Origin: Anagrus nilaparvatae
Lineage: Eukaryota > Arthropoda > Insecta > Hymenoptera > Mymaridae
Direction: 5' to 3'
Assembly: GCA_022575985.1 (NCBI GenBank)
Contig: JAKSXM010000077.1
Span: 124,001-188,000, forward strand
Length of the DNA: 64,000 nt
Shown: piece after piece, positions 9,957 to 41,479 of the stretch
Layout: every line of letters begins with the position of its first letter
Position numbering within the stretch: the stretch's first letter is position 1
Notes under the pieces: model-generated
The model's input: only the letters and a program-made list of their open reading frames with translations
Told to the model about the DNA's origin: nothing
The model's database searches: none
Program-made: the position numbers and the translations under genes

Positions 9957-10057
9957 TTTAGGGAGTTTTTATCTATTGAAAAAGCAAATAATTCTACAAT
10001 TTTCAAATTTCTATTTTCTCTATTCTTTCTTAACTAATACTATCAAAAATATATACA

Positions 10058-11719: not shown

Positions 11720-12091
11720 TTTTTATGCCTTAGACAAGACCACACGACTCTTTTATGCCCGGAATTGCCAAAATTCGTAGAGGGTAGAAAACAACAGGCT
11801 GTTGAAAAGGACAATAGAGGGCAATTAAAGTGCAGTCATTGTTCAAAGAATGGTCATGTCAAGGAGAATTGTTTGACCAATCCTGGTAATTTGAACAAAC
11901 CGGAGTGGATAGTTAAGCGACAGCAAATGGAATGCCATAACTATAAGAGAAAAGGACACACAGCTCGTTTCTGCAGATCAAGGCCTGCCAATACAGGAAG
12001 GGCAGAGGAAAATAATCAGGGAAACGGCAGCAGCCAACCGATGGGCGCGAATCGGGAGGCTCCAAGTACATCGAACACACAATCTATTTAA
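11720..12091 (+). pseudogene. gag: gag, nucleocapsid segment with zinc knuckles
   Basis: In frame with the capsid segment after the TAG at 11717. It encodes one intact CCHC knuckle (CSHCSKNGHVKENC, CX2CX4HX4C) and a second in which the second Cys is Tyr (CHNYKRKGHTARFC). A Cys/His cluster also directly follows the stop. Zinc knuckles bind the packaged RNA. The segment ends with TAA at 12089 after overlapping the protease frame by about 75 nt, where a -1 frameshift signal lies. Confidence 0.8.
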
Positions 12092-17112: not shown

Positions 17113-17877
17113 GATACATTGACTAAATACAGTGTAGCAGTACCATTGCCTGATTCACAAGCCAGTACGGTAGCCGATGCATTTGTGAAGAGGTATATAA
17201 CCGTTTTTGGGGCTCCGCAGACCTTGGTTTCAGACAGGGGTGCAAACTTTATGTCAAAACTGTTCGCAGCAGTAGCTAAGCCGTTCAAAATCAAGCAAAT
17301 AAGAACGTGTGCATATACACCAAGGTCAAATCCCGTGGAACGGATGCATCATACCCTTGGTCAGTTCTTAAAAGTATTTGTAAATAACAATGAGGATGAC
17401 TGGGATGATTATGTAGAATTGGCAACTTTTTCCTACAATTCCATGGTGCACGAATCCACAAAAGCAACTCCTTTTGAATTAATGTTTGGAAGGTTAGCAA
17501 GAACACCTTCTGAAATCAAGGAACCAATCGAAAATGAAAACACTGTAGATGCATATTTAACTAATCTAATAACAACTTTGAACAAGGTACAAAAAATTGC
17601 AAAAGAAAATGTAATAAAAGCCAAAGAAAAATCGAAAGAGCGCTATGATCAAAACTTGTTAGAGCATATTTTCAAAATTGGCGAAAGTGTTTTCTTATTG
17701 CAAGGAGGTAAAATACGTAAGTTAAAGGATCAATATAAAGGGCCATATGCCGTAATCAACAATTATAAAAATGGAAATGTAAAAATAAAAACTGGTAAAA
17801 ATAAATTTAGCGTAGTAAATGGAAATAGGTTACAGCATTCATATATAAAACCTAAATTTCCACTAGAAGAGTATTAA
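17113..17877 (+). pseudogene. pol: pol: integrase catalytic core and C-terminal domain, after an in-frame TAG
   Basis: Same frame as upstream pol, separated only by TAG at 17110-17112. It holds the second catalytic Asp (VSDRGANF) and the Glu of SNPVERMHHTL, completing the D,D-35-E triad begun at IDIVGP. A GPY/F-type end follows (DQYKGPYAVINNY), as in many gypsy integrases. Integrase inserts the reverse-transcribed DNA and makes the target duplication. The nonsense codon lies in the core domain, so the copy is unlikely to make active enzyme. Confidence 0.9.
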
Positions 17878-18247: not shown

Positions 18248-21200
18248 ATTATACAACGTGACCACGAAATCATGGAGTTGTGATTATAAGCCAAAGTGTA
18301 GGTAGAAAAAGCGAAAAATAAATTATGGGATTTTAATGATTTTATGTGTTTTCTCGATTGGTAAGTTCAAAATTTTGGTACGGCTTACCAGTTTTCCAGA
18401 AAAAGAAAAATTTTCACCAAAAAAACGAAAAGGGTCAATTTTTTTTTATTAATATTTTTAAAAATGCATAAAAAATAATATTCCACCGATTAGTTTTAAT
18501 TAATGTTGCATATTTTTTAAAATATCTCATATTAAAGTTTTAAATTTTTAATCATTTTTGAAAATGGTAATATTACCTTCTGAAAGGTAAGCCGGCTAAG
18601 TTCAGACAATATATCATATAGGTTAGTAGGATTTAAAAATAAATAAACTATAGAGCACTATAGTTTTTCTGCTACTCTAATTCTCGATAACCGCATAAGG
18701 AAGATATTTCGAGGTTATTTATTTATTTGTATTTTTTATTAATTATAATTGTATAATAGTTTATTTAATTAAATGAGCGCATAAAGGAATATTTTTTCTG
18801 CAAATGAAATCATGTTTTCTCACATTATTTTGTAAATTAAAAGATCCTAACCTACCAAATAATTATACAGCAACAAAAATTTTTGCAAGCAAATTTATTA
18901 AATTGAACTTAGATACCAGGAAATAAATTAACAATTATGTACAAATATCTATTTATTTAATAAGACTATCTGCTAAGAAATTATAAATTTATTGTGAGGA
19001 ATTATAAATTTATTTTTCAATTTGCGATTGGCTATGGTAAAAGTTGGAAAAGAGCCAATAAACAAGCCAATCGCAGTTAAGTTTAAGTTTAAGTTTCTTT
19101 TAATAGGCACTTTTGATACCGACTATTTATTGAAAGATTAAAATAAAATAATTTTAGTACCGAAAGAGAAACGCCTTAAAAGGGGGTAGTTTCATGTTCA
19201 AGTTTCATGATCAAGATTGCTGATCAAGTTTACTTTCATTGCGTTGTGGCTAGCTTGCAGTTGTGACCCCGATTTTATGGAGTTGGTAGAATCACCCAAA
19301 GGATATTAACTTTTGCGCGACGTAACCGATCGAGAAACTCAGATTGCTAAGCTCCGATCGAGAAACTACAATCGACCAACTTCTCTAATTGCCCCGTGCA
19401 TTAAGCTTGCGTATACCTTCTTGCTAAGCATTCAGGAGAATCCTGCTTGCTAAGCATTCAAAAAATCCCTACTGCTAAGCATTCAGGAAATCCTGTTTGC
19501 TAAGCATTCAGGAAATCCCTAATTGCTAAGCATTGAGGAAAAGCCTGATTGCTAAGCATTCAGGAAATCCTGTTTGCATAAGCATTGAGGAAGTTCCTGA
19601 TTGCTAAGCATTCAGGAGAACCCTGCTTGCTAAGCATTGAGGAAAAGCCTGATTGCTAAGCATTCAGTAAATCCTGTTTGCTAAGCATTCAAGAAATTCC
19701 AGATTGCTAAGCATTCAGGAAATCCTGTTTGCTAAGCATTCAGGAAATTCCTAATTGCTAAGCATTCAGGAAAAGCCTGATTGCTAAGCATTAAGGAAAT
19801 CCTGTTTGCTAAGCATTCAGGAAATTCAAGATTGCTAAGCATTCAGGAAATCCTGTTTGCTAAGCATTCAAGAAATTCCAGATTGCTAAGCATTCAGGAA
19901 ATCCTGTTTACTAAGCATTCAGGAAATTCCTAATTGCTAAGCATTCAGGAAAAGCCTGATTGCTAAGCATTAAGGAAATCCTGTTTGCTAAGCATTCAGG
20001 AAATTCAAGATTGCTAAGCATTCAGGAAATCCTGTTTGCTAAGCATTCAGGAAATTCCTAATTGCTAAACATTGAGGAAAAGCCTGATTGCTAAGCATTC
20101 AGGAAATCCTCTTTGCTAAGCATTCAGGAAATTCCTGATTGCTAAGCATTCAGGAAATTCCTGATTGCTAAGCATTGAGGAAATTCCTGATTGCTGAGTA
20201 TTGAGGAAAACCCTGATTGCTAAGCATTCAGGAAATCCTGTTTGCTAAGCATTTAGGAAATTCCTGATTGCTAAGCATTCAGAATATCCTGATTGCTAAG
20301 CATTCAGGATATCCTGATTGCTAAGCATTCAGGAAATTTCTGATTGCTAAGCATTGAGGAAAAGCCTGATTGCTAAGCATTCAGGAAATCCTGTTTGCTT
20401 AGCATTCAGGAAAGCCTGTTTGCTAAGCATTCAGGAAATTCCTGATTGCTAAGCATTCTGGAAATCCTGTTTGCTTAGCATTCAGGAAGATCCTGACAGG
20501 ATTTCCTGAATGCTTAGCAAGAAGGTATATGCAAGTTTAATGCTCGGGGCAATCAGAGAAGTTGATCAGCATGCTTGATCATGAAACTTGAACATAAAAC
20601 TACCCTCTTTTAAGGCGTTTCTCTTTGGGTACTAAAATTATTTTATTTTAATCTTTCCATAAATAGTTGGTATCAAAAGTGCCTATTAAAAGAAACTTAA
20701 ACTTAAACTTAACTGCCATTGGCTTGTTTATTGGCTCTTTCCCAACTTTTACCATAGCCAATCGCAAATTGAAAAATAAATTTATAATTCCTCACAATAA
20801 ATTTATAATTTCTTAGCAGATAGTCTTATTAAATAAATAGATATTTGTACATAATTGTTAATTTATTTCCTGGTATCTAAGTTCAATTTAATAAATTTGC
20901 TTGCAAAAATTTTTGTTGCTGTATAATTATTTGGTAGGTTAGGATCTTTTAATTTACAAAATAATGTGAGAAAACATGATTTCATTTGCAGAAAAAATAT
21001 TCCTTTATGCGCTCATTTAATTAAATAAACTATTATACAATTATAATTAATAAAAAATACAAATAAATAAATAACCTCGAAATATCTTCCTTATGCGGTT
21101 ATCGAGAATTAGAGTAGCAGAAAAACTATAGTGCTCTATAGTTTATTTATTTTTTAAATCCTACTAACCTATATGATATATCGTCTGAAATTAGCCGGCT

Positions 21201-21540
21201 TACCTTTCAGAAGGTAATATTACCATTTTCAAAAATGATTAAAAATTTAAAACTTTAATATGAGATATTTTAAAAAATATGCAACATTAATTAAAACTAA
21301 TCGGTGGAATATTATTTTTTATGCATTTTTAAAAATATTAATAAAAAAAATTGACCCTTTTCGTTTTTTTGGTGAAAATTTTTCTTTTTCTGGAAAACTG
21401 GTAAGCCGTACCAAAATTTTGAACTTACCAATCGAGAGAACACATAAAATCATTAAAATCCCGTAATTTATTTTTCGCTTTTTCTACCTACACTTTGGCT
21501 TATAATCACAACTCCATGATTTCGTGGTCACGTTGTATAT
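18248..21540. mobile_element. Foldback-like structure between pol and env: ~1-kb inverted arms around a minisatellite
   Basis: The left arm (about 18248-19230) and right arm (about 20555-21540) are near-perfect inverted copies. The left arm starts CAACGTGACCACGAAATC and the right arm ends with its complement. Pairing resumes at about 19380-19440 with about 20490-20555. The left side has ~150 bp of extra sequence (19230-19380). Both outer edges lie next to TATA, so a short target duplication is possible. The loop is a minisatellite. It may be a foldback/MITE insertion or a resident part of the element. The single ORF in the right arm is not credible. Confidence 0.85.
19420..20500. repeat. Minisatellite of ~25-27 bp units, about 40 copies
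   Basis: The consensus unit is TTGCTAAGCATTCAGGAAAT followed by (T)CCTGA or a close variant. Each unit contains two near-palindromes: TGCTAAGCA and CAGGA-N-TCCTG. Units vary (TTGAGGAAAAGCC, TTCAGGAGAACCC) and form higher-order patterns, for example an alternation repeated near 19740 and 19920. One unit at the right end (20495-20520) is inverted. Confidence 0.9.
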
Positions 21541-21599: not shown

Positions 21600-21630
21600 T
21601 TTTTAAATAAGTTTATTTTGATTTCAGATG
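21600..21630 (+). promoter_or_regulatory. Putative splice acceptor at the env start codon
   Basis: A T-rich tract (about 21611-21625, TTTATTTTGATTTCAG) ends in AG at 21626-21627, directly before the ATG of the first envelope gene. Errantiviruses and retroviruses make env from a spliced subgenomic RNA. The position suggests an intron reaching back over gag-pol and the foldback hairpin. The donor was not identified. Confidence 0.55.
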
Positions 21631-23460
21631 AGATTTGTAGTATTCTTGATGGCAACTTTATGGTCAAGTACATGGGGAGCTGAAAAATCAATAATAGCCT
21701 TCGATTGTGCTCAGCAGTACAACAACATCTCTACCTTTCCCTTAATCGATATTGGGGAATGCCATGTCGCCATGAATCCAAAAGTTTATGTTGAAAAGAC
21801 AAAAATTGCATTACTTCTACTTAATGATTATGCGAAAGTGCACGTTAAGTTATGCAAAATAGAAGTTACTAGGGAAATAAGTTATTGTGATGCAGGCTGG
21901 TACAAGAGAACAAGAATATCCGGGATACCAGGAGGAAAAATTTCGTATATTGAACATGTAACTCGGTTACAATGTGACACTATGCATAATACATTAAATT
22001 TTCATTTTAGAAATCAAATTTTAGTGCCTAACTTAATGCCAAATAATTCTAGATCAATGCCCGTTCAGTTGGCAGGGCATAGGAGCGACAGAGGCATGAG
22101 CTGTATGAATGGCTATTATTCTGATCCTTACGGTACCTGGAGTGAGGTGGTGGTAGATGGTTGGATAAAAGTTACTTTAGAAGACTATGAAGCCACTGTA
22201 GACATCGATAACAACAACGTAATTTTGAATACAGGTGTGAAATGCAAACTAAATTCAGAACAATGTATTGATCTGTATGGTGGTTTTGCATTCTGGAATG
22301 CTGCTCCAAGAGATCGTTGTGCAGATAAGTATTCAAAATTATACGCAGGTCCAGTTGACAAGATAACAGATCCAGAAATGCCAGATCGACCGGTATATGC
22401 CTTAGAGTCTTCAATAATGTTTGCTTTTACAGCAAAGGGAAAATTTTCAGCTTGCTCAAAAAAATTCACTAGGACTGACGACCCACGTATTTTTATAGCT
22501 GAAATGGAGAATCCTGAATACCTGGAAGTGCAGGATTCAATATCACCTGAAAATTCAGATTTAATGGCTTACATGAACTCAAAATTTTTATATGTAGAAA
22601 AACATCATAAAATACAATTAAAAAACTTATATCATGATGTTATATTACAGAAGTGTAATTTAGAAAAGAAAGTAATAGCTAATGCCTTAAGTCTAGCAAT
22701 TTTAGACCCAGCCAGTTTTGCTTACCAAATTGTTGGGGGGCCAGGTTTTGTTGGATTGGTCTCTGGTGAATCAGTGAACATCGTAAAGTGTATCAGCGTA
22801 CCAGTAAAGTATCGGAAAACAACCTCTTGCTATCAGGAACTTCCAGTATATAAAGATGATGAAGAGTACTTTATGGCTCCTAGGACACACATATTAACTA
22901 AAACTGGTACCTCGGTAGAGTGCAATACATTGGTACCCAGTATGTTCCTTTTAGGTGAAACATGGTTTAAATTTTCACCTGATATTTCAGAAGCCAAGAA
23001 GCTACAAGTTTTACAGCCAGGCACTCAGTCTACTTGGAAGTACGTGGATCCTAAAAACTTGGCTGAAGCTGGTATCTACACCGCTGATCAGTTGAAGAGT
23101 CTTAAAGAATACATGAGATTTCCCTTGGAAAAATCTGCTGTATTAAACAGTGTCGCAAGAGGTATGATGGGTCAAAATGTAACTGGAGACAAGTTATATC
23201 CGGCATTTTTGCTAGATGCAGATTCCATAAGTAAGATCATTCAGTCAACATGGGAACAGTTTTGGGGAAAATTTATGGCATTTGGAACCGCATCAGCAGG
23301 TATTTTAGGACTAATAATGGTAGCTCGACTAATTAAGTTTTGTGCAGATACAGCCATCCACACCGTAACTCTGTATAATATTTATGGAATTTCATTACAT
23401 TTGCTGGGAGCTGTTTGGGATTCTGTTACCCAACTTAATTCATTTAGGTCAAGAAAATAA
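21628..23460 (+). CDS. Envelope glycoprotein 1, chuvirus-glycoprotein-like
   Basis: A 610-residue Cys-rich protein with a signal peptide (residues ~1-18, MRFVVFLMATLWSSTWGA). The long ectodomain is followed by a membrane segment (~549-571) and a second hydrophobic stretch (~579-597). The mature N-terminus, with FDC about eight residues in and an SL/PL-I-D-x-G-E-C spacing, resembles glycoproteins of chuviruses, which arthropod LTR elements are known to have captured. Such proteins mediate membrane fusion. An AG acceptor abuts the start codon. After the stop, another frame (23384-23641) reads like a cytoplasmic tail, so the 3' end may be frameshifted. The membrane-glycoprotein call is firm. The chuvirus link is by eye only. 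Confidence 0.65.
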   Translation: MRFVVFLMATLWSSTWGAEKSIIAFDCAQQYNNISTFPLIDIGECHVAMNPKVYVEKTKIALLLLNDYAKVHVKLCKIEVTREISYCDAGWYKRTRISGIPGGKISYIEHVTRLQCDTMHNTLNFHFRNQILVPNLMPNNSRSMPVQLAGHRSDRGMSCMNGYYSDPYGTWSEVVVDGWIKVTLEDYEATVDIDNNNVILNTGVKCKLNSEQCIDLYGGFAFWNAAPRDRCADKYSKLYAGPVDKITDPEMPDRPVYALESSIMFAFTAKGKFSACSKKFTRTDDPRIFIAEMENPEYLEVQDSISPENSDLMAYMNSKFLYVEKHHKIQLKNLYHDVILQKCNLEKKVIANALSLAILDPASFAYQIVGGPGFVGLVSGESVNIVKCISVPVKYRKTTSCYQELPVYKDDEEYFMAPRTHILTKTGTSVECNTLVPSMFLLGETWFKFSPDISEAKKLQVLQPGTQSTWKYVDPKNLAEAGIYTADQLKSLKEYMRFPLEKSAVLNSVARGMMGQNVTGDKLYPAFLLDADSISKIIQSTWEQFWGKFMAFGTASAGILGLIMVARLIKFCADTAIHTVTLYNIYGISLHLLGAVWDSVTQLNSFRSRK

Positions 23461-23641
23461 TAATAGAAGAGCACAGGCCCCACCGAGAGAACCGGAGGAA
23501 GTCATCGAAACAGAACCAACGGCACCTATGATGCAAACAGAAATAAATCAGGGTTCACCTATATACCCGTTGTTAGGGTTAACTATTGGTGACCAAAACT
23601 TAGCTCAAGAGCGTGAAACAGAAAAAAGACACTTAAATTAA
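23384..23641 (+). pseudogene. Alternate-frame tail overlapping the end of envelope 1
   Basis: This frame overlaps the last ~75 nt of envelope 1 and continues 180 nt past its stop. It encodes a hydrophilic Pro/Glu-rich stretch (APPREPEEVIETEPTAPM) followed by IYPLLGL. Such a composition suits the cytoplasmic tail of a membrane protein better than a separate gene. I infer a one-base indel near the end of envelope 1. A short independent ORF is the alternative. Confidence 0.45.
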
Positions 23642-23838
23642 TTTTTCTAGTAATTTTTCTTCTACATGGTCACTTTCTTTTCCTTTTTCTTTTAACTAGA
23701 ACTTTCTTTTATCTTTTAGGGTTAAAAGTTGTTGTTTGGTATAAGGGTAGTAATTAATCAAAAAAAAAAAAAAAAAAAAAAAATTTTTGAGTAATGAGTT
23801 AATTATCTTTAAGTTTATTTTATTATTTAAGGTGAAAT
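23642..23838. other. Intergenic spacer with a 22-base A run
   Basis: This T-rich spacer between the two envelope genes has an uninterrupted A run at about 23760-23782. A TTATTATTTAAG tract precedes the next gene and could be a splice acceptor. No gene seen. Confidence 0.6.
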
Positions 23839-25257
23839 ATGCAGTTCTTCCTGGGAATTTCGTTAATAATTGCATCAGTAAAAGGGTCACAGAACAGACC
23901 AGAAGTGACACCTATTGAAAACAATCCTGGCATAATATTCGAAGCGATGGGCAAGGTGAAAATCATCAACGATCCATTTACTATATTTACCTTGGTGGAC
24001 ATAAAAATCATAGATGAAGTATACATTCATCATTTAAAAAGTGTTAAAGGTAACGTCAGCAATCTTATAATGTCTAGCCTGAAATACACAGAAGAACTTA
24101 AGGGTGTAGCAATAGAAGAATATGAGAACTTTGGTAAATTAATTAACGAAACAGAAATGCAATTTACTAGTAACCCAAGAGCTTTGTTTTTCGTAAATGA
24201 AGCCAAAAGAATTTTCAGAAATGCTCATGCAGAAATGCAAGTTATGAATGCTACATTAGCGGACACTTTTAGGATAGCCAAGGAATTTGATTATCTGGCA
24301 ACTACTATGGGGGCAATAGCAAGAAAAGATACCCCCAAAGAGTTTGTGAATAAAATTGATTGGGTAAGAGTAAAGAATCAGTTAAATAAATTTTTTGGCG
24401 AAGAATTACTGCCAGTAGACCAATGCAATTATGTAGTTGACTTCAAGGTAGTCAGATTAAACAACAGAACATTGGCATTTATGATAAACATACCAACCAT
24501 ACAAAAGGATGAATATTCTTTGTATAAATTACATAGATTGCCATCATTTATAAATATAGGAATTAATTATGTTTATACTCGAGTAATATATAAAAATGAC
24601 TATTTAGGTGTAGGTAAATCCGGCCATAGGACTTTTTTTTTATCAGAACAAGAAAAAAGGAACAACATTGAATGCCGTTCAGAACATATATACTTAAAAA
24701 GAGCACCAGTAATTAGTTTAAAGGTCAATTGTGAAGCCGAGCTATTATTACATAACACCATGTCCTGCCCAAGGGAGGAAGATTTTGCACACGAATCAAT
24801 ACTAGAACTCGTTCAGGGAGGAGTACTGTACTCAATGGCGGAAGAAACAAAAGCAAAAATCAAATGCGTAGGGTACAGTCAAGTGAAAAAGTTATCAGGT
24901 TTAGGTTTAGTTAAAATACCGCCATCTTGTGAGATGACTATAGGTAATCATATTTACAAAGGAAGCGGAAATACTGAGCCTAAAATAATTACTCCGAAAG
25001 GAAATATGTTCATAAAAGATGTAACTAAGTTTATAAAGACCACGCAAGATACATTTGTTCCCACTACACTACCAGTGAAAAATAGTTCTTGGAGGCACGT
25101 TCTCAAATTTCACAAGTTTGAAGTAATATTGGTAATAACCTTCGGGTTAACATTGATAAATTTAGCAATGTTAATAGTAAAAATAGTAAAAGGAAATAAA
25201 ATATATAATCCCTTGGAACAGCATCCCATGGAGGCTTGTATAAACTCACCTGAGTAA
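23839..25257 (+). CDS. Envelope glycoprotein 2, baculovirus-F/errantivirus Env-like
   Basis: A 472-residue protein with a signal peptide (~1-17), a large ectodomain, a single C-terminal membrane segment (~429-450, VILVITFGLTLINLAMLIVK) and a short tail. The segment NPGIIFEAMGKVKIIND near the mature N-terminus matches the G-(I/L)-x-(F/Y)-E-x-(L/I/M)-G pattern common near the start of F-type proteins. The Cys-rich end (IKCVGYSQV...PPSCEM) fits the same family. No obvious multibasic furin site is visible, so processing is uncertain. It is unrelated in sequence to envelope 1. AATAAA lies right after the stop. The alternative is a generic viral membrane protein. Confidence 0.6.
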   Translation: MQFFLGISLIIASVKGSQNRPEVTPIENNPGIIFEAMGKVKIINDPFTIFTLVDIKIIDEVYIHHLKSVKGNVSNLIMSSLKYTEELKGVAIEEYENFGKLINETEMQFTSNPRALFFVNEAKRIFRNAHAEMQVMNATLADTFRIAKEFDYLATTMGAIARKDTPKEFVNKIDWVRVKNQLNKFFGEELLPVDQCNYVVDFKVVRLNNRTLAFMINIPTIQKDEYSLYKLHRLPSFINIGINYVYTRVIYKNDYLGVGKSGHRTFFLSEQEKRNNIECRSEHIYLKRAPVISLKVNCEAELLLHNTMSCPREEDFAHESILELVQGGVLYSMAEETKAKIKCVGYSQVKKLSGLGLVKIPPSCEMTIGNHIYKGSGNTEPKIITPKGNMFIKDVTKFIKTTQDTFVPTTLPVKNSSWRHVLKFHKFEVILVITFGLTLINLAMLIVKIVKGNKIYNPLEQHPMEACINSPE

Positions 25258-25363: not shown

Positions 25364-26024
25364 ATGGCAGTTTTTGATTTAAAATTGTTTAAGAAGCAAT
25401 ACCAGGATTATGCTCCATCTATAAAAGAAAAAAGAAAGGTTGTCCTCTCAAGATAAGAAAATTATTAAAAGCACTAAAAAATGTACCAAGAAAAGGTTTG
25501 CTTAAAGAAATAAATGAATTACTGGTTTCAGGGAATTATGAGATTTTTTCTACACCAACAGAGGTCTTAACGTTATTACTATTTAAAAATAAAGAACCTA
25601 TCAAAATTTTAACAGCTATTACAGATGCAATTGAAGAAATAGATGTAATAATTGGAAATAAGTCAAAAACAAGTTTCAGAACGGAACGAGCAAAATGGGT
25701 TACTAGGGAGCTATTAGAAAGATACGCTTGGGATATTCCATCATCAGTAAAGTTAAAACAACAAGAATTTTTTTATTGTATAAAAAATCTTAAAGAACAA
25801 GGATATATCATAGAAGGCACAAATAAGTTTCTATGTAACTTTTGTAAAAAAACATTAAATATGGACTTATTAAATTGGAAGTTACAAGCTATTAGTCAGG
25901 GTGTATAAGCTGCAAGGCAATTTTATGGTCTCCTGAGAAAATTCAAGATTGTTTTAAATGTTATAAGCAATTTGGAGTCCATAAGGAATTAATAAGAGCA
26001 AAGGAATATTTTATACACTTTTAA
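25364..26024 (+). pseudogene. Small zinc-ribbon-like accessory ORF, broken into three frames
   Basis: An ATG at 25364 follows a TTTTGGTTACAG acceptor-like site (ends 25346) and encodes ~30 residues to a stop at 25454. The main ORF (about 25429-25908, a different frame) carries a helical region and a CNFC pair. A third frame overlapping its end and running to a stop at 26022 carries CISC and CFKC pairs. Pairs of CX2C at this spacing suggest a zinc ribbon. I read this as one ~200-residue gene with two small indels, but separate ORFs cannot be excluded. It does not match a protein I know. Its place, last in the sense direction after two env genes, is that of a retroviral accessory gene. Confidence 0.5.
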
Positions 26025-26656: not shown

Positions 26657-28982
26657 TTAATCTTGTTTGCGTGATCGCTTATGAGAAGTATTCGCAGATG
26701 CATCATCTTCATCAGATGAACCGTTAGCCTCAGGAGCATCATTAGGTGGAAGAGGATTGGCAATCAGCCATTGCTGATAAGCTGCTTTATGGCGATCACA
26801 CGTAATATGACGAGCTATTGTTTTGCTGGTGTATTCTTTTCGGCATGGTTCACACTTAATTTTTTTGCCTTTACCATGCACCGTTTCCTGATGGGTAAGA
26901 AGATGGGCGGCGGAAATAGGGTTAATAGGGCAGTCTGGACATGCAAAGGACCTATGAACTTGATGTTTATGTTTTTTTAAGGCAACTAAGGAACCTAAAT
27001 TAGGGGTAGGGCAAAGATTTTCAGCGCAAGTAACATTAAAATCTACTTGAAAAGAATAGTCAGGCAAGTCTACTATTAGAGGTTGCCTACCACCTACACT
27101 AAGAGGACAGGAGCATAAAAACTTTTTGACAGAATGAAGTGCCAAAACAAGGGGCAACAAACAACGGGACTTGACAACAGAAAAACCAGGACTGTAATAT
27201 GCATATCCTACGCCCGACCCAACAAACACCATCTGACCACGGCGTTGGATAAAATCATAGGATGGAATTTGGTGGGTGGAAAGAAAAGCCTTGCTAGGAA
27301 AGAAACCTGGGGTACGGAGACAAGCGAGGTCACAGTTGCAAAAATTACATAAGTCACCGTCCTTACATCCTTCTTCGTTGCAAAGACCAGATTTTACCTT
27401 CAAGTCGGGCCAAACGGTTAGGAGTTTTTGTACCGAGGTTTTAGGAAGCACTGTCCAAAGCAGGAAGTCACCATCAGTCAAAAGATGAACAGAAGGGAAC
27501 TGACCAAGTTCAGTTCGGTGCATAAAAAAGGATTTTGGGCCATGGAAACTCCAAGCAGATGAGTTTACCCCTATAAATAAAATAAACAAAAATATAACGT
27601 TTTAATAAGAAGTGAATACAAATATTATTTTAATAATTCTCAGTTACCTAACAGGTTTACTTTCAAAAATGCTGGAAGAGTATCCGCAAAACAATGTGTG
27701 GCAGCAAAATTCAGGAACTCGTCATTATAAGGAAGGTCCTGATTATGGACGTTATACCAAAAACGTCCAGAAACTAAGTCTTGATCACGTAATGATTGAA
27801 TAAAAGTCAAAGGGTCTTTTCCTTCAGGAACAGTGAAAGTAGAGGATTCGTCCAGTTGGGTCAGAAACTCTTCGCTAATGGAAGGATGAACTGGCATTCG
27901 CCAATAACGGGATGGATTACCATCAAACTTCTCCTTACAGAAAGCTTGGTGATCTACATCAGCCAGATAAGTAGACATACGAGTAAAATTGTCATCAGCA
28001 GGAAGTGTGGTCATTGCATCTTCGAACTAAAATGAAAAATTATGAAATAAAGTATGAAATCGTTCTTATAATTAAATATAATAAAATAAGTTTTTTTTTA
28101 AGAAGCAATAAAAGTAACTCACCAAGATGCAAGACTCGTGTTGCAAAGTAGCCTGTTTCCGAATAAAAAAATTAGGTAATTCACCTAAACCCAGACCAGG
28201 GATCCTTTTCAACTCATCATTGGAAAACAAAGTCGCAGATCCCTATGAAAAACAAAATTTTTTTAAGTTAAAATTTTCCTCATATAGTTTTAAGTATTGT
28301 AAAAATGCGATAAACTGTGTAGAAACGCATTTGTGATAAAAGCAGCGTTAACGCGTAATATTCAAAATAAGTAATAAGCACAAATGTAATAACAAACATG
28401 ATTAATACATTTTTTTTTTAAATATTTAATCAAACAAATAAGTTAGAATAAGAAAGTAAGTTAATTTTGTTAATAACTGATTATTTTGAGTCAAAGGACT
28501 ATTCAAGAACAAAAATTAAAAGAATTTTTTTTTTTAAATTAAAGATAGAGTTATATGAATTTTGCGTTAACCAAATACGGTAAAGCAAATACGGTAACAC
28601 GTACAGTTATCGCATAATAGTACATTCGTAGAAACCGAATATAAAATAACAATACCCTTTTATTCAAAATATTCAGTTAAATAAAGCACAAAAATATAAA
28701 TTTTAATAATAACTGTAACAATTTTTTTTTTTACAAAATGCAATAACTATGAAAAAGAAAGGTGCAATAATTCATTAAAATTAAACAAAATTTTTTCTAA
28801 GAGTACGGTTTATTACAATTTATATAAATTATAAAAACATAGTTGAAAATAAATAGAAATAAGTTTTTTGACCTTTTATCGAGTAAATATTTTTATTTAA
28901 TTTCTATTTAATTTCTACACTCGAGTATCAACTCTAATAAATTTTATAGTTGAAAATAATTTTTACTTACTTGAAAATCCAT
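26657..28982 (-). CDS. Antisense four-exon gene: degenerate JmjC domain plus three C2H2 zinc fingers
   Basis: Exons on the minus strand: 28971-28982 (ATG and three more codons), 28123-28242, 27648-28026 and 26657-27570. The three introns have GT/AG ends (donors GTAAGT, GTGAGT, GTAACT) and the frame is kept throughout, giving 474 residues. Residues ~171-305 follow a JmjC layout: an H-R-T-E segment (188-191) where HxD/E iron ligands sit, TDGDFLLWTVLP, a Cys cluster, then QRRGQMVFVGSG and GYAYYSPGF. The layout recalls KDM4-type demethylases, but the distal iron-binding His position appears to be Ala294. Three C2H2 fingers (~350-440), an acidic stretch and KRSRK follow. Likely a nuclear, DNA- or chromatin-binding, possibly non-enzymatic protein. 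Confidence 0.65.
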
Positions 28983-29756
28983 AATAAATAATTATTTATA
29001 ATAATTTGATAACACTCACAATAATAATAAAAATAATTGCACTAAGTATTTAACTACAAATTGTACTTTGTTAAAGATAGGCAAAGTTAAATAAGAGAAA
29101 AAAAATTTTTAGGTATATCAGACAAACTTGTTAAATAAAGAATACTGACATAACCGGTAGTCAATAGTAAAAATAATTGTAACATAAAAAGTAAAAATGG
29201 GACAAAATGAGTAGTTATCATAAAAATTCGATTAATAAATAGATTAGAACACCTAGATAAAATTAGATAAGTAAGATAAAATTTTTTTAAAACGAATAAA
29301 ATTTTTTCTTTGTTTGAAAAATGCTTGCAGCATTTTTTTTATAAGGAGAAGGGAATATAGGATAAAAGTAAAATGAGGAGAATTTTACTCAAAAGTAATT
29401 ATAAATCACTATGCAAAAAAAAAAAAAAAAAATTTTATAATAATAATAATTTTTTTTTATGAAAATGTATTAGCTAGTAAGAAAAATTATAAAATTAAAA
29501 CTTAAGTTTGACTTATAGAGAATCTTAAATAAGCAAGTATAATGCAAAATCCGAGTTCGGTAATAATCAAATTAAATTTTTTGTTAACATTCTTAATGGG
29601 TTCATTACAGATGTTCGGTCGAATAATTGAATTCAATTTAATTTATTTTTTTTTTTGCAAATTATTCTGTTTTTACAATTTTGGCAATTATGTTTGATTG
29701 ACTTGTAAACAAGTTTCAAAAAACTCTGTTTGAGTTTTTTTTCATAAGGAGAGGAG
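28983..29756. other. 3' untranslated region of the giant element
   Basis: A/T-rich and without credible ORFs. It presumably includes the promoter of the antisense gene. It contains two hairpin-plus-purine-tract modules at 29317-29354 and 29718-29756. Confidence 0.6.
29746..29756 (+). promoter_or_regulatory. Polypurine tract for plus-strand priming
   Basis: AAGGAGAGGAG lies immediately before TGTTA, the first bases of the 3' LTR, exactly where reverse transcription needs a polypurine tract. A U-rich run precedes it, as in many retroelements. A second tract, AAGGAGAAGGGA, lies at 29343-29354. Confidence 0.85.
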
Positions 29757-30745
29757 TGTTAGAATGAGATAAAAGATATAGCAGCAAAAGCGTTAACAGG
29801 CATGTTAACGCAAATGCGATAAACTTCGGTTAAACGCATTGAGCTCGCTATTAATATTTTTTAGTTAATTAATAACGTTTTATTTAGCCTTGGCTATTTC
29901 ACAATGCTCTTATCATTTTAGATAAGAAGTAGTGTTTTTTGGCCTTGGGTATTTCACAAACGATTTAACAATTTAGATAAGTTATAATGTTTGTCGGCCT
30001 TGACTATTACTCAGCGTTATTAACGTTATAGATAAGTAATAAATTTTGGCCTTGACTATTATAACAAAAATCTATTATTGACTAAAAAAAGATGAAAAGA
30101 GACGCCTTAAGATTACCAGGCAAATAACACCCCTCTCTCAAAAAAAAGGTTTAGACCAACGCGTTGTTGAAGTCAATAATATAAATAGTAGCCAAAGGTG
30201 TAAAAACAGGGCAATCAGTAAAGTAAAGTCAATTCTAAAACATTTAATTCACGGTTAGTTAAAAGATTATGCATTATACTTATTTAGCTATTTTAGTAAT
30301 TGTTATAATTAGTTTATTAAGTTTCTTTTATATTTGCATTTATCAATAAATAGTTATTTTGGTTTATTGGTTATTCTATTAAAATAAAAGTGTTTTTATT
30401 TATCTTCATCTTTATCTATCCAATTCTATTTTCAGCTATCAATTAACCATAAGTTTGCTATTTCAATCATAGAAAAAACACGCCTTCCCGGATACAAGTA
30501 ACTTTAATAAGTTACGAGTATAAAACTAGTCAAATTCAAGTATTAATAAAGTTACGAATTTATTATAGTTATATTTGTACATGTACATGGTATATATGTA
30601 TATGTACCTGTATACACGATTATATTGAAGTATATAGATTCACTATAAGCCTACAGTCATTTATTAAATAACTAAAGTCCTTTTAAATAAATTATATAAA
30701 TTATTAATTAAAATTAAATAAAATAATAATCAAAAATTCGTAACA
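29757..30745 (+). mobile_element. 3' LTR of the giant element, complete (989 bp)
   Basis: It begins TGTTA after the polypurine tract and ends TAACA, a 5-bp terminal inverted repeat. The last ~727 bp match the 5' LTR with about six differences. U3 contains a ~55-bp repeat marked by GGCCTT near 29886, 29941, 29996 and 30048. The flank after 30745 is ATAAC. The other copy of the target duplication cannot be checked because the 5' end is lost. Confidence 0.92.
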
Positions 30746-31260
30746 ATAACTATCTTATTTCATTTTTTGAGTTTTTTCATATATCAAATAGCCGACAATA
30801 TAGATTGAAATTTTTGTAGTTTTTTCATATTGTAAGCTGACAATATGAATTTTACTATACAGTTAAATTCTTAAAATTTTTGTTTTTTTCTATTATTCTT
30901 AGGACTGCCGATGTCTACATTATTTCATATTCAAATTTTTTAGTCATTTCATATATAAAACAAAAGAGCTTCGGTGCAAATTACTCCTTGGAAAAAATGC
31001 TATAGAGTTGACGCTTTTTTTTTAATTTTAGCTCACGGCACAGAGTTACAACTGTTTAAAGCTAAGAAGTACCATATTTAAAAACCCAGAAATTGGTCAT
31101 TTTCATCACTTCATATCTTAAAATGGTATGTATTAAAATATAAAAACCAAAATGCTTAGTTTTTATTAAACGAATTTCTAAAGCCGCTTTTTTTTTGTTT
31201 TTTATTTAATGTATTCATTAAAAAGAAATAGCAAAACAAAAGACTTAGAGTCTGATTTAT
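30746..31260. repeat. Flank of the LTR insertion, then inverted partial copy of a dispersed ~620-bp block
   Basis: From about 30956 to 31255 the sequence is the reverse complement of part of the block at 41505-42118 and 51707-52322, with shared landmarks around CCTTGGAAAAAATGCTAT, GAGTTACAACTGTTT and TTTTATTTAATG. The block abuts satellite DNA here as it does at the other two sites. 30746-30955 holds nothing recognised. Confidence 0.7.
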
Positions 31261-32392
31261 TGAGTTATTGGTTTTATTTATTAAAATAATAGTATTGAAT
31301 TTAGCAGAAACTATACTTCACTTTAATTTTTTTTTCTAAAACAATCCTGTTTTATAGAAATATTGTAATTTAAATTGTTTTTATGCAATGATAGCATTGA
31401 AATATATGTATTAAATTTATAAAAATATACCCCGCTTTCAATTTTTTCGAATAATAGCCTGTTTTTTAGAACAGTTGTAATTTCAATTGCATTGAAATAT
31501 TGGTAATTAATTTAGCAAAAACTATACCTCACTTTAGTTTTATTTCGAAAAGTGTCCTTTTTTATAGAAAAGCTGTAATTTAAATCGTTTTTATGCAATA
31601 ATAGTATTGATATATTATAGTATTGAAATTATCAAAATATACCCAACTTAAATGTTTTTCAATTCCGTCGTGTTTTATTGAAATGTTGTAATTTCAAATG
31701 TTTTTATGCAATGATAGCATTGAAATATCAGTATTGAATTTAGCAAAATATACCCCACTCAAATGTTTTCGAATATTGTCCTGTTTTATAGAAATCTTGT
31801 AATTTCAAATATTTTTCTGCAATGATAGCATTGAAATATTAGTATTGAATTTAACAGAAATTATGCCGCTCTTTAATATATTTTTCGTTAAGAACTTAAA
31901 AAGATTGACTCATATTGATGGTCCACAATTTGAAAAACATCTAAAAATTTTAATATATATTATCGGGTGTTTTATATATGAAAAAGCTTAAATAATTTCA
32001 TTATAAAAGAAAATGGATATCGCCTGTATAAAACATGAAAAAATAAAAATTTTTAAAATTTATAATTTATAGTTAAAGTTAAATTGATAGTCCACAATTT
32101 AAAAACCTTCTAAAAATTTTAATATATATTGTCGGGTGTATTATAGCAGAAACTATACGCTATTCTATATATTTTTTGAATAGTGTCCTCTTTTAAATGA
32201 AAGTTGGAATTTCAAATATTTTTATGCAATGATTGCATTGAAAAATTTTTATTGACTTTAGCAGACACTATACGCTATTCTATATTTTTTTCGATTAGTG
32301 TCCTCTTTTCAATGAAAGTTGGAATTTCAAAAATTTTTATGCAATTATTGCATTGAAATATTTTTATTAACTTTAGCAGAAACTATACGTCA
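31260..32392. repeat. ~120-bp satellite, first stretch
   Basis: Monomers share ATTTTTATGCAATGATAGCATTG, then GCAGAAACTATAC, a variable ATTTTTTTCGA-type stretch and a TCCTGTTTTATA element. A distinctive longer unit (TTGATGGTCCACAATTTG, about 31915) reappears inverted near 35670 and direct near 39625. No genes. Confidence 0.85.
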
Positions 32393-33076
32393 CACAGTGG
32401 GGCAAAACGGTCAAAAATCGCTCTTGGACTCAATTTTTGAGCTATTCACTTAAAACCGGTTTTAAAATACTTCTAGAAGTGTCTAATTTCATTTTTTACT
32501 AATTAGCTGTCAGCGAGACTGTCAGCCAAAAGCGCAAATTTAACAAAATTTTAAAATTAGCAAAAATTTCAAAATTTTATATTTTGAATTTAAAGTGTTT
32601 TATACTTAATTTTTTTACTGTTTACTCAATCTATATATAAGGGATAATTGCGTTACATATATTTTAAATATATATTCTGGCATAAATATTACATAAATAA
32701 TTTCAGTTTTACTTCAAATTACAATGTTTTTCGCTTTCTATAAAAATTTATCAAGAAATATATATATATATATATACAGAATATATATATAAAATATATA
32801 AAAAACAATTATCCCTTATAGAAAGGTTGAGTAAACAGTAAAAAAATTAAGTGTAAAACACTTTAAATTGATAATATAAAATTTTTAAATTTTCGCTAAT
32901 TTTGAAATTTTGTTAAATTTGCGCTTTTGGCTGACAGCTAATTCGTAAAAAAAAATCAAAAAAGCCGCAGTGACACATGAAATTAGATACTTATAGAAGT
33001 AGTTTAATACCGGTTTTAAGTGAATAGCTCAAAAATTGAGTCCAAGAGCGATTTTTGAACGTTTTGCCCCACTGTG
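32393..33076. mobile_element. Hairpin MITE with CACAGTGGGGCAAAAC ends and 5-bp target duplication
   Basis: A 684-bp element. The inverted arms of ~265 bp (32393-32655 and 32810-33076) start CACAGTGGGGCAAAACG and surround an AT-rich loop. CGTCA at 32388-32392 is repeated at 33077-33081. It sits inside a satellite monomer. The monomer near 39805 (GCAGAAACTATACGTCATTT) shows the site without the element. No transposase is present, so it is non-autonomous. Confidence 0.93.
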
Positions 33077-33300
33077 CGTCATTTTACATTTTTTTATAAT
33101 AGTGTCATGCTTTATACAAATGCTGGAATTTCAAATATTTTTATGCAATGTTAACATTGAAATATTTTTATTGACTTTGGCAGAAACTGTAAACCATTCT
33201 AAATTTTTTTGAATAATGGTTTGTTATATATAAAAATTGGTATTTCAAATATTTTTATGCAATGTTAAAATTGAAATATTTTTATTACTGCGCCATTTAT
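33077..33300. repeat. ~120-bp satellite, continuation after the MITE
   Basis: The same monomers resume at the target duplication and end near 33300. Confidence 0.8.
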
Positions 33301-33690
33301 GGCGCCGTTTCTAAGTTAAGTTAGAAACACACTAATATACGCGAAAATACTCTTTCTCTCTCATTGATAATCGCAATTCTCTCGAATATGTATCGAAATA
33401 GTCGGAATTCTCTCGAATATATATCGAAAGAATAAGTCAAAGTGCGAGTGTATACTGACTATACATATACATATAAACATAATATATATATAATATAGAA
33501 ATAGAAATATAGCGTCTGCTCTCGCCCGGTACAAGATATTATCATAGAATAATAATATTATTCTATGATATTTATTTGATTACAGCATTCTTTGATTATA
33601 GAGTTAGCAATATTTTTATTTTTACGTTAAAACTATCTATATTTTTTTAATATAGAGTTTCTTATACATATATACAAACACGTATTGGTT
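33301..33690. other. Non-satellite spacer
   Basis: It begins with the short palindrome GGCGCC. A tandem ATTCTCTCGAATATRTATCG segment follows (about 33370-33430), then AT-rich DNA with a small palindrome near 33545 (ATAGAATAATAATATTATTCTAT). No gene. Confidence 0.5.
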
Positions 33691-34870
33691 ATGTATCTTT
33701 CTTTTAATGCAGACAACCATAAATAAAAAAAGTAATTATTAGGTAAATGAACAATTTTTTTCTTTTAAGTTTTTAGCTTTTAACTAAAGGTATATTCAGT
33801 TACAAGAAAAATATTATTCAGTTCAGCTTTATATTTACAGTCTCATGTATTACTTAAGTATCAAGAGATCCATTGCTGGAGCAGTATTTATTCTTACGAT
33901 GAATGTTCTGCAGTTTAAAAACTCATTAATTGCAGGAAACAAGTAATCAGTATCTAAGGCTGACAAGACTCATATGGTGTTATAGATAATTTCTTTTGAA
34001 CTCCAGAACATTGATCGTACAAACAAAGACTACTCTAGTGATGGATTTTTTGATAGTTAAGTAAAACTTGAATGAAAAATATTATTCAATCATTTATTTT
34101 TATTTTTTAAATAATGAAATAACTATTTCTTTTGTTTTATATGTCTAGCATGTATCTTTCTTTTAAAGCAGTCAACAATAAATAAAAAAAGTAAATAATT
34201 AAATGAACAATTTTTTTCTTTTAAGTTTTTAGCTTTTAAGTAAGGGTTTCAAAAATATAATTCAGTTCGGCTTTATATTTACAGTCTCGTATATTACTTA
34301 AGTATCAAGAAATCCATTGCTGGCGGAGCAGTGATTATTCTTACGATAAATGTTCTGCAGTTTGAACACTCATTAATTGCAGCAAAACAAGTAATAAGTA
34401 TCCGAGTAAGTATCTGAGACAGACAAGAAACATTTAGTGTAATAGCTAATTCCTTTTGAACTCCAGAACATTGATCGTAAGAAAAAATAATACATGAGTC
34501 ATGGATTACTTGATACTTAAGTAACACATGAGACTGTAAATATAAAGCTGAACTGAATTATATGTTTGAATGCTGTAATTATAAACTAAAAACTTAAAAG
34601 ACAAAAATTCTTAATTTATTTATTTATTTTCTTTAAAGATGCAACCTAGACATATAAAAAAAAAAGAGATGGTTGTTTCATTATTTAAAGAAAATAAATA
34701 AATAAATTAAAAGTTTTTGTCTTTTAAGTTATTAGTTTATAACTAAAGCATTCAAAAATATAATTCAGTTCAGCTTTATATTTACTGTCTCATGTATTAC
34801 TTAAGTATCAAGAAATCCATGACTCGTGTTGTGTTTGTTCTGGAGTTCAAAAGGAATTAGCTATTACACC
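33690..34870. repeat. ~430-bp duplicated unit plus an inverted copy, centred near 34650
   Basis: A unit containing CAGCTTTATATTTACAGTC and ACTTAAGTATCAAGA occurs near 33830, 34270 and 34770. A reverse-complement copy ends near 34560. The last two form a palindrome whose centre is AT-rich and lies near 34650. Confidence 0.7.
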
Positions 34871-34879
34871 ATGGTTCTT

Positions 34880-36540
34880 GTAGTGTATGACTATTAAAAA
34901 AAATTTTAGAATAGCGTATAGTTTCTGCTAAAGTAAATATAAAAATTTTAATGCTATCATTGCATAAACACATTTTAAATTACAACTTTTATATAAAACA
35001 GGACACTAATCGAAAAAAATTTAGAATGGCGTATAGTCTCTGCTCAAGTCAATAAAAATATTTCCATTGCATAAAAATATATGAAATTACAACTTTTAAA
35101 TAAAACAGGACGACTAATCAAAAAAAAATTTAAAATGGCGTATAGTTTCTGCTAAAGTCAATAAAAATATTTCAATTCAATCATTGCATAAAAATATTTG
35201 AAATTCCAACTTTTATATAAAACAGGACGACTAATCGAAAAAAATTTAGAATGACGTATAGTTTCTGTCAAAGTGAATAAAAATATTTCAATATTAACAT
35301 TGCATAAAAATATTTGAAATACCAATTTTTATATATAACAAACCATTATTCAAAAGAATTTAGAATGGTGTACAGTTTCTGCCAAAATCAATAAAAATAT
35401 TTTAATGTTAACATTGCATAAAAATATTTGAAAATCCAGCATTAGTATAAAGCATGAAACTATTATAAAAAAATGTGAAATGACGTATAGTTTCTGCTAA
35501 AGTTAATAAAAATATTTCAATGCAATAATTGCATAAAAATATTTGAAATTCCAACTTTCATTTCTAAAAGGACACTATTCGAAAAAAATATATTATAGCG
35601 TATAGTTTCTGCTATAATACACCCGATAATATATATTAAAATTTTTAGATGTTTTTCAAATTGTGGACCATCAATATGAGTTAATCTTTTTAAGTTCTTA
35701 ACGAAAAATATATTAAAGAGCGGTATAATTTCTGTTAAATTCAATACTAATATTTCAATGCTATCATTGCAGAAAAATATTTAGAATTACAAATTTTCTA
35801 TAAAACAGGAGACTATCAGAAAAAAATTTTAAATGGCGTATAGTTTCTGCTGAAGTGAATAAAAATATTTCAATGCAATCATTGCACAAAAATATTTCAA
35901 GTTGCAACTTTTATATAAAAGAAACTGATCCAAAAAAATGTAAATGGCGTATAGTTTCTGCTAAAGTCAATAAAAATATGCCAATGCTATCATTGCATAA
36001 AAACATTTTAAATTACAACTTTTATATAAAACAGGACCCTAATCGAAAAAAATTTAGAATCGCGTATAGTTTCTGCTAAAGTCAATAAAAATTTTTCAAT
36101 GCTATAATTGCAAAAAAATATTTTAAGCTGCAACTTTTATATAAAACAGGACACTATTAGAAAAAAATATAAAATGATGTATAGTTTCTGCTAAAGTCAA
36201 TAAAAATATTCCAATGCAATCATCCCACAAAAATATTTCAAGTTGCAACTTTTATATAAAACAGGAAACTGATCGAAAAAATTTAAAATGGTGTATAGTT
36301 TCTACTAAAGTCAATAAAAATATTTCAATGCTATCATTGCATAAAAATTTTGAGAATAAAAAAATATTTCAATACAATTATTGCATAAAAGTGTATGACT
36401 ATTAAAAAAAATTTTAGAATAGCGTATAGTTTCTGCCAAAGTAAATATAAAAATTTTAATGCTATCATTGCTTAAAAACATTTTAAATTACAACTTTTAT
36501 ATAAAACAGGACAGTAATCGAAAAAAATTTAGAATAGAAA
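34880..36540 (-). repeat. ~120-bp satellite, left arm of a large inverted repeat
   Basis: The satellite monomers lie here in inverted orientation and match 38770-40320 read backwards, including rare variants: the CTCTGCTCAAGTCAAT unit near 35040, the TTGATGGTCCAC unit near 35670 and the AATAGTCATAC unit at both ends. ORFs here are satellite read-through. Confidence 0.85.
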
Positions 36541-38505
36541 CAAATTATTACAAAAAGATTTGTGCATTTATTATTATATTTAGAGCGCCGTTTGCTGGCT
36601 GGTTAGGGGCCTGGCAAGTTAAGCATTTTGTGAAAATAATAAATGTTTATAATAATTACGTAAGCAAATTATATTTATGGAAGACCCTGGGTGACGAACA
36701 GGTCCCAGGGGTTCCATTAAAAGAAATTAATTATTTATATCAAAATTTTAGGTTAACTAGAATGCTACTTAACTTAGGGCCAAAAAAATTGATCTCACAA
36801 CCTTTACGGCCCGAATGTGTATAGGCAATAATCTTAAAAGTTTTATTGTTCTATCCTTTTTTAGTGTCTCTGGGCTCAGATCGCATGTAAATGCCAAAAA
36901 ACCCGTACTTAACTTAGACGTAATTATACTTTAATTTATTAAAGTCTTACATCTATTTAAAATTAGTTTTCAGTTATTAAAAAAATTATATAAAAAAACT
37001 GTGCTCATTAAAGAGTTTCAGAAATGATAATATATATTATTTGTAAATTTATTTGTATCAAAATTTTAGGTTAACTAGAATGCTACTTATTATATTTATG
37101 GAAAATCCTGGGTGACGAACAGGTTCCAGGGGTTCCATTAAAAGAAATTAATTATTTATATCAAAATTTTAGGTTAACTAGAATGCTTACTTAACTTAGG
37201 GCCAAAAAAATTGATCTCACAACCTTTACGGCCCGAAAGTGTATAGGCAAAATTATCTCAAAAGTTTTATTGTTCTATCCTTTTTTAGTGTCTCTGGGCC
37301 CAGATCGCATGTAAATGCCAAAAAACCCATACTTAACTTAGACGTAATTATACTTTAATTTATTAATGTCTTACATCTATTTAAAATTAGTTTTCAGTTA
37401 TTAAAAAAATTATATAAAAAAACTTTGCTCAAAAAAGAGTTTCAGAAATGATAATTTATTATTTGTAAATTATTTATATCAAAATTTTAGGTTAACTAGA
37501 ATCCTACTTAACTTAGGGCCAAAAAAATTGATCTCACAACCTTTACAGCCCGAAAGTGTAGGCAATAATCTCAAAAGTTTTATTGTTCAATATTCTTTTA
37601 ATGTCTCTGGGCCCAGATCGCATGTAACTGCCAAAAAAGCGATACTTAACTTAGACGTTATTATACTTTAATTTATTATAGTCTTATATCTAATATCTTA
37701 TCTATGAAAATTAGTTTTCAGTTATTAAAAAATTTATAAAACTAACTGTGCTCATAAAAGTATTTCAGACATGATAATTTATTATTTGTAAAAGTTGTTT
37801 ATATGAAATTGTAGCAATTCTGAATGCTTGCTTAACTTAGGGCTAAAGTATTCTTAAAATTTATGTTAAAATTTTTAATAGTTCAAAATAATACAGTTTG
37901 AAAAAAATAATAAATATAACAAACACTTATTTGTAAATAGTGCATGCATAATAAAAAAAATGTAAATTACATGTAATATATGAAGTGTTAAAAATAGAGA
38001 ATAAAATTTCAATTAAAATCAGATTTTTTTAAAATTCGAATACGAATTTAAGGTAATTCAATGTATTTTATTTTTCAAAATGTAGATATTCAAAAATGCT
38101 TGCGAATTTCCCAAACAAAATAAAATAAATAATTTTTGCTAATTTAATGGTAAAAATTTGCATAAAATTAATTTTCATAGAGTCATCACCCAAATTCTTG
38201 ATCAGCGACCCAAAGAACCCGTTAGGACTTAATTTGGTCGCTCAAAGTGCAGAATTAGCAAAAACATCCTTTTTAGGGATTGTTTTTGCTCATTTAAGGA
38301 TGAAATATTTATTATTCAAAAAAAATTCCCCCAAATTCTTGATTAGCGGCCCAGAGAACCGGTTAGGACTTAATTTGGTCGCTCAAAGTGCGAAAATAGA
38401 AAAAACACCCTTTTTAGGGGTTGTTTTTGATAATTTGAGGGTGAAATATTAATTATTTATCAAAAATTCCCCCAAATTCTTGATTAGTGACCCAAAAAAC
38501 CCCGT
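36541..38505. repeat. Spacer of the inverted repeat: ~310-425-bp and ~140-bp tandem repeats
   Basis: 36580-37850 holds three copies of a unit with GATCTCACAACCTTTA and CAGATCGCATGTAA (near 36880, 37303 and 37617). 38190-38500 holds 2.3 copies of a ~140-bp unit with GCGACCCAAAGAACCCG and TTTAGGACTT-like landmarks. No gene. Confidence 0.75.
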
Positions 38506-41470: not shown

Positions 41471-41479
41471 AAAATGAAA

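Follow-up and report, generated by a model that had tools for sequence, protein, structure and literature searches.

A conserved, spliced antisense gene of the JmjC family with zinc fingers in envelope-bearing Ty3-like LTR elements, possibly acting on chromatin

HBZ of HTLV, a spliced gene in antisense orientation close to the 3′ LTR, encodes a nuclear bZIP regulator, and VANDAL elements are DNA transposons of plants, in this respect unlike the element described here. We have analysed a window, by which we mean the whole stretch of 64,000 nucleotides, in which an LTR element carries a gene that shares with the HTLV gene its splicing, its antisense orientation, its place near the 3′ LTR and possibly a role as a nuclear regulator. 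On the other hand, the bZIP domain of the HTLV product is unrelated to the domains found here, and HTLV is an exogenous retrovirus. An antisense promoter has been described in the 3′ LTR of HTLV (PMC7264820). VANC of the Arabidopsis VANDAL transposons is a sequence-specific anti-silencing protein whose targets are often tandem repeats (PMC5735166). The likeness lies in a transposon-encoded protein and in tandem-repeat targets, to be set against the tandem units of the LTR here, for which anti-silencing is our hypothesis; however, VANC concerns DNA methylation and is a different protein.

Plant LTR retrotransposons, namely Grande (gene23), RIRE2 and Retand, have antisense ORFs between pol and the 3′ LTR, and the review's account of them describes no clear similarity to a database protein for any (PMC7264820). 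These ORFs have the place, the antisense orientation and the conservation across copies in common with the present gene, and the Grande product is nuclear; in that account introns go unmentioned, whereas here a spliced JmjC and C2H2 gene resides in an animal host. Giant Ty3/Gypsy elements of orchids carry an ORF for an AlkB-type m6A demethylase (PMC9289625), which is also a case of a large Gypsy element with an extra ORF of a 2-oxoglutarate-oxygenase family, but of an RNA demethylase type; the main text of that report mentions neither JmjC nor jumonji, and the portion concerned with this ORF does not call it antisense or spliced. Among cellular proteins, Rph1/Gis1 of budding yeast combine JmjC with zinc fingers (PMC4085034). 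Gis1 (PMC4085034) and Epe1 of fission yeast, which is said to act non-enzymatically against silencing (PMC7192584), have a natural His-to-Tyr change at an iron ligand of the JmjC domain, as the protein described here does. Unlike these cellular genes, the present gene lies within a retroelement, and more of its catalytic residues are lost. Among the open-licence papers listed, judged by titles and the starts of abstracts, none names a retroelement-borne JmjC gene.

Two envelope genes lie on one side of the antisense gene and the 3′ LTR on the other, all within a Ty3-like element of about 21.5 kb, which reads along the plus strand. The 3′ LTR (29757-30746) has a start inferred from a purine tract at 29746-29756 followed by TGTTAG, and its part 30019-30746 matches the 728-bp 5′ LTR (9214-9941) with 6 mismatches in 728 positions. 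With a probable start at 29757, the 5′ LTR appears shortened, its first part probably missing. Frames in the gag position and through pol (10034-17877) contain in-frame stops in the window copy; the gag-position frames from 10034 gave no Pfam gag match, and Pfam places a retroviral protease at 12016-12546 and reverse transcriptase, RNase H and integrase at 12547-17877. In several other copies, the region of the integrase match lies in an open frame of about 1800 codons. The Ty3/Gypsy-type assignment is based on the LTRs and on the order protease, reverse transcriptase, RNase H and integrase, an order shared by BEL elements and retroviruses. Downstream follow env1, a Monjiviricetes (chuvirus-type) fusion glycoprotein (21622-23460, E 2e-180), and env2 of the Baculo_F type (23836-25257, E 4.3e-9), so that two unrelated envelopes adjoin in one LTR element (21622-25257). 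The envelope types by themselves suggest an animal host. A survey of chuvirus-type glycoproteins, in the part that treats such capture, gives no clear case for Gypsy elements (PMC10084718), and the window element, with its LTRs and two envelopes, looks like one. A plus-strand ORF of 171 amino acids (25393-25908) recurs beside the antisense gene in related elements, with partial matches of 72-93% at eight other loci and of 56% at locus L038.

Other features of the window were recorded as well. Between integrase and env1, an inverted repeat of about 990 bp (98% identity) surrounds a minisatellite of about 26/51 bp and is perhaps a nested element (18250-21539). Between protease and reverse transcriptase (12643-13992), there are 150-bp, that is 50-codon, in-frame repeats with near-identical middle copies, and this stretch is also open on the antisense strand. 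Outside the element, reverse transcriptase and endonuclease matches fall in two ORFs (5994-8738 and 59193-61901), and we noted a DDE_1 transposase (42819-43862) and large arrays of tandem and inverted repeats that have diverged (31000-41500 and 48300-51800).

The minus-strand gene starts with an ATG at 28982 and consists of four exons that join into 474 codons and a stop ending at 26657. Exon 1 (28971-28982) has only the four codons MDFQ ahead of a GTAAGT donor, exon 2 (28123-28242) encodes residues 5-44, exon 3 (27648-28026) residues 45-170 and the first base of codon 171, and exon 4 (26657-27570) the JmjC-like core, the C2H2 fingers, the basic tail and the stop. The GT-AG introns measure 728 nt (28243-28970, 21% GC), 96 nt and 77 nt, and their GC content of 16-21% compares with 41-43% in exons 2-4. 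A sequence-only reading had proposed these four minus-strand exons, with GT/AG introns and a frame held over 474 codons, and joining them again gave the same model. The gene is open in the window copy, although gag-pol there has in-frame stops. The three sense frames across 26657-28982 contain 47, 50 and 66 stops, so that the conservation described below is not accounted for by a gene on the sense strand.

Relatives were searched for in 489 Mb of genome, which gave at least 127 matches for exon 4 and at least 77 for env1, both counts being lower bounds. Within 25 kb of env1 lay 41 of the 127 exon-4 matches, 39 of them antisense and convergent and 2 on the same strand. After the matches were collapsed into at least 112 JmjC loci and at least 72 env1 loci, with a proximity limit of 15 kb, 37/72 env1 loci had a JmjC relative nearby (35 antisense-downstream, 1 antisense-upstream, 1 sense-upstream) and 35/72 had no JmjC match within that distance. 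The 149 integrase loci were binned by identity, with two that fell between bins left out. At 80% identity or more, 21/63 had an antisense-downstream gene and 42/63 had none; at 50-60%, the gene was antisense-downstream at 18/40, antisense-upstream at 1, sense-upstream at 1 and absent at 20; at 40-49%, an antisense-downstream gene was found at 0/44. Presence in two tiers and 0/44 in the third indicate that the gene belongs to some branches of the element lineage, none having been found in another. Where no JmjC match lies within 15 kb (62/103 integrase loci of the upper two tiers and 35/72 env1 loci), the loci may be fragments, may have diverged or may truly lack the gene.

These counts bear on the question of whether the gene belongs to the element at all. 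The sequence-only reading had placed it antisense inside the retroelement, and this is borne out by its position between env2 and the 3′ LTR and by the antisense-downstream arrangement at 35 of the 37 env1 loci; absence from all other copies, which would have spoken against that reading, is not what we found, with relatives at 37/72 env1 loci. The antisense placement between pol/env and the 3′ LTR was found across many copies, the 3′ LTR itself having been located for the window copy. The 69/112 JmjC loci that are near neither integrase nor env1 (43/112 are near at least one of them) may be host genes or parts of other elements, and could be used to argue for frames that arose by chance or for a host gene that lies under the element or next to it. 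For the gene in the window, however, the position between env2 and the 3′ LTR and the antisense-downstream recurrence in many copies make this explanation scarcely credible. The recurrence rules out a host gene under or beside the element. A chance set of frames is ruled out by purifying selection, recurring splice sites and the recurring antisense position, which together place the gene beyond chance.

The splice sites were followed through 38 loci, the window copy counted as L001; L017 and L025 coincide in position, which means that these loci are not all independent. At 30/38, an AG and two bases stand exactly ahead of codon 172, which is the acceptor of exon 4. In the other eight (L006, L016, L017, L021, L024-L027), either a cut or frame-broken match displaces the projected point or, in L026, there is no AG at it. 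The acceptor is kept even in L028-L038, where protein identity is about 25-30%, and exons 1-3 could be traced in the closer copies only. The small first exon, four codons and then GTAAGT, occurs at 9/38 loci (L001-L005, L008-L010, L025) and a seven-codon form at 5/38 (L012, L014, L015, L018, L020); pattern hits in L016, L026, L036 and L038 look like chance and were left out of these counts. Considering that a sense RNA cannot splice antisense introns, the introns would survive reverse transcription. This explanation, already offered by the sequence-only reading and drawn here from the strand, fits the recurring splice sites, which are as it would lead one to expect.

For exon 4, dN/dS was computed in 22 pairs, 5 of which had no defined dS. 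In all eight pairs with a dS of 0.89-1.93, the ratio was 0.127-0.215, these pairs sharing sequences and thus not being independent. Five closer pairs gave 0.23-0.815, the highest value coming from the closest pair, the window copy and L002, in which a dS of 0.025 represents too few changes to judge, and four saturated pairs gave 0.114-0.293. The antisense gene is under purifying selection as a protein, and the dN/dS comparison with other copies that the sequence-only reading had put forward as a check thus came out in favour of conservation. For other elements, the literature considers antisense transcripts as regulators (PMC7264820, in the part on such transcripts), and an antisense RNA that pairs with the sense RNA might be all that matters here, the protein being incidental. 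Against this stand the selection at the protein level and the recurring splice sites, and we regard it as very improbable.

The gene and the envelopes do not always travel together. Five env1 loci that are 90-93% identical to the window env1 have an antisense-downstream JmjC gene only 26-34% like that of the window, and four copies with a JmjC gene 90-93% like the window's have env1 at 84-85%. In addition, L002 and L009 have integrase and then the antisense gene, with no match to env1, env2 or the 171-aa ORF between them. The discordant identities suggest a probable exchange of the 3′ module between subfamilies, and its retention in L002 and L009 suggests a use that is not tied to the envelopes.

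The JmjC-like core comprises residues 172-331 (27089-27568, minus strand; found by Pfam, profile and alignment), including a Cys-rich insert (27332-27382) and a CxC within 27089-27115. Three C2H2 fingers follow at residues 352-376, 381-402 and 410-431 (26954-27028, 26876-26941 and 26789-26854, together within 26789-27028), and the basic C-terminal tail KRSRKQD (26660-26680) is a possible nuclear signal. The fingers and the tail had been noticed in the sequence-only reading and were found again by direct reading at residues 352-431 and at the C terminus; the fingers are detected weakly by Pfam in the window copy and also appear through phmmer matches to C2H2 proteins of the PDB. Pfam JmjC matched the exon-4 frame of the window with 22.5 bits (E 1.6e-4) and the whole protein with 21.8 bits (E 2.8e-4), under the curated cut-off of 24 bits. 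The close relative P0001, the one protein-database entry matched by the window protein at E <= 1, likewise fell under it (22.3 bits). The same genome also has more remote relatives that exceeded the cut-off, L028 with 34.7 bits (E 2.7e-8) and L031, L033, L034, L036 and L037 with 54-60 bits (E 2e-14 to 3e-16).

A PDB search with the window protein gave no JmjC chain at E <= 1. A profile of the JmjC region only (A3; eight rows, two of them window-type) matched 50 different PDB sequences (E <= 1e-3), and 44 of these are named KDM4 or KDM6, UTY included; the other six are JMJ14, JMJ13, RPH1, KDM5A, a '2-oxoglutarate oxygenase' and a protein of rice. When the longer profile A1 was used, zinc-finger proteins ranked first and the best JmjC match was KDM6A (2.5e-9); in the protein database this profile added a second relative, P0002, at E <= 1e-6. 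Scans of IMG/VR found no relative of the JmjC gene and none of env1. Structure predictions, built on 3 rows, reached a pLDDT of 32.6 and 34.4 and were too poor for use. On these profile and alignment matches the antisense protein belongs to the JmjC domain family, where the name covers the family and not an activity. The JmjC-like layout of the sequence-only reading therefore holds for the family, through the distant relatives above the cut-off and the KDM6 and KDM4 matches, but not for an activity, since the iron site is lost; the HMM search that it had proposed as a check succeeds for six relatives (L028, L031, L033, L034, L036 and L037), the window protein itself staying below 24 bits.

In KDM4, an Asn and a Lys lie near 2-oxoglutarate, which is the basis for our reading of two of the five catalytic columns, and the zinc site of the KDM4 type is Cys-x5-His ... 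Cys-x-Cys. Where the full set is H-E-N-K-H, the window copy has R-E-H-L-Y, with four of five residues lost. Its HRTE (27509-27520) is a remnant of the HxE iron-binding motif with Arg in the first His column, and its GVGYAYY (27194-27214) places Tyr in the column of the third iron-ligand His. Among 16 aligned rows, the window clade, P0001 counted, has R-E-H-L/V-Y (8/16), five rows keep all five residues (L031, L033, L034, L036, L037) and three have L-S/G-N-T-Y (L028, L029, L035). Tyr thus replaces the third iron His in both degenerate groups. In the zinc-site columns, Cys is present in 16/16 rows and His in 15/16, with Arg in the window copy, the KDM4 pattern having been compared by description only; in the CxC of the core (11 rows), the first Cys is invariant and the second nearly so. 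A tree of 19 rows supports each of the two degenerate groups well (100/100 and 100/99). Its deep order is weak (63/52) and carries a long-branch warning, so that one and two catalytic losses are indistinguishable.

On the one hand, the loss of four of five catalytic residues rules out assuming an active demethylase in the window copy, and demethylation by its subfamily cannot be assumed either. On the other hand, judged by the residues kept, the enzyme-like form sits in subfamilies other than the window's. L036 and L037 lie antisense inside elements that have env1 and integrase, as does L038, which has an internal stop and a first motif similar to the H-E-N-K-H type; L031, L033 and L034 have neither integrase nor env1 nearby. 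Degenerate groups are among the eight pairs of low dN/dS, indicating that the degenerate form is not mere decay. The sequence-only reading had inferred a captured host chromatin gene that could act on the silencing or targeting of the element; such a capture and such an effect are conceivable, and the catalytic loss in this subfamily speaks against a simple form of that reading.

The pseudoenzyme site of the window subfamily could also point to a self-limiting repressor or a plain transcription factor, in which the JmjC-like part would serve as a scaffold and the fingers would bind the LTR and set copy number or the transcription of either strand. Gene activation by Gis1 does not require its JmjC domain (PMC4085034, in the part on gene activation), and tandem units in the LTR offer possible sites. 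These units of about 55 bp lie in the 3′ LTR at 29860-30060, the array 29860-30008 amounting to 2.7 units, and a pattern chosen by eye, which makes its chance figure too favourable, GGCCTTGRSTATT, occurs in them at 29886 (one mismatch), 29941, 29996 and 30048, with a further occurrence at 9243; we consider these units, speculatively, a candidate protein-binding array. However, five of 16 rows, two of them (L036, L037) in elements, keep all catalytic residues, which pure DNA binding would not need, and the JmjC core is under purifying selection, which the Gis1 precedent leaves unexplained because the domain is dispensable for activation there. A repressor or transcription factor of this kind is a serious possibility, yet rather unlikely.

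Three neighbourhoods of JmjC loci away from integrase and env1 were examined, around L034 (L039, L040), L033 (L041) and L035 (L043). Near L035 (L043:629-1921), the JmjC relative is about 2 kb from an ORF that we take to resemble a capsid protein. This ORF had no Pfam match and 101 matches in the genome, two of which, seen by eye, lie no more than 5 kb from a JmjC match (C62:33.5 Mb and C317:7.67 Mb); the pair is perhaps a DNA element of the Maverick/adintovirus type. At L033 (L041:2610-3068) and L034 (L039:1821-2489), long JmjC-C2H2 ORFs that keep the five catalytic residues have as neighbours an ORF for a histone fold and one for an RNase_T exonuclease, and may belong either to the host or to other mobile elements. 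An array at C62:66759926-66765355 holds six weak JmjC-related matches (28-29% identity) spaced by about 0.9-1.2 kb.

Its retention at the same place in many related elements suggests that the gene is probably a tool for controlling the packaging and silencing of the element by the host. Our main reading, to which we give a probability of about 50%, is that of a conserved antisense accessory gene of an envelope-bearing Ty3-like LTR lineage, encoding a chromatin-acting protein that probably works against silencing, catalytic in some subfamilies and a pseudoenzyme here. The gene would be expressed from its own minus-strand transcript and spliced three times, and the stretches removed would be no introns in the sense RNA and would outlast reverse transcription. 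The C2H2 fingers would direct the protein to DNA, and the LTR units mentioned above may be their target, which is a guess. The JmjC-like part would bind or act on nucleosomes in the nucleus, and by blunting the silencing of the element or its LTRs the protein may bring a gain to the resident element. Histone demethylation is possible for the H-E-N-K-H subfamilies, and in the window subfamily a conserved pseudoenzyme may bind or recruit instead, as Epe1 is reported to do. A narrower version is more tentative, and we hold it at somewhat below even odds: an ERV-like Ty3 lineage would carry a spliced antisense chromatin eraser or anti-silencing factor with fingers aimed at the LTR repeats, a working demethylase in some subfamilies and a conserved pseudoenzyme in others including the window's, its 3′ module swapped by recombination.

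A protein with a chromatin-type domain may instead guide the integration complex towards particular kinds of chromatin, in the manner of the chromodomain found in chromoviruses (PMC9289625, in the part on chromoviruses). Since the gene is separate and antisense and not fused to integrase, we consider such tethering improbable.

Antisense genes of LTR elements were already known. The one described here combines DNA-binding fingers with a domain that can be recognised as that of a chromatin enzyme, it has recurring introns, clear selection and many copies, and enzyme-like and dead JmjC versions coexist in one genome. The case also suggests a search route, in that such genes could be found through introns conserved antisense to retroelements. 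If the anti-silencing role is true, these elements would encode an arm against heterochromatin, and their subfamilies would allow JmjC function with and without catalysis to be compared in a natural setting.
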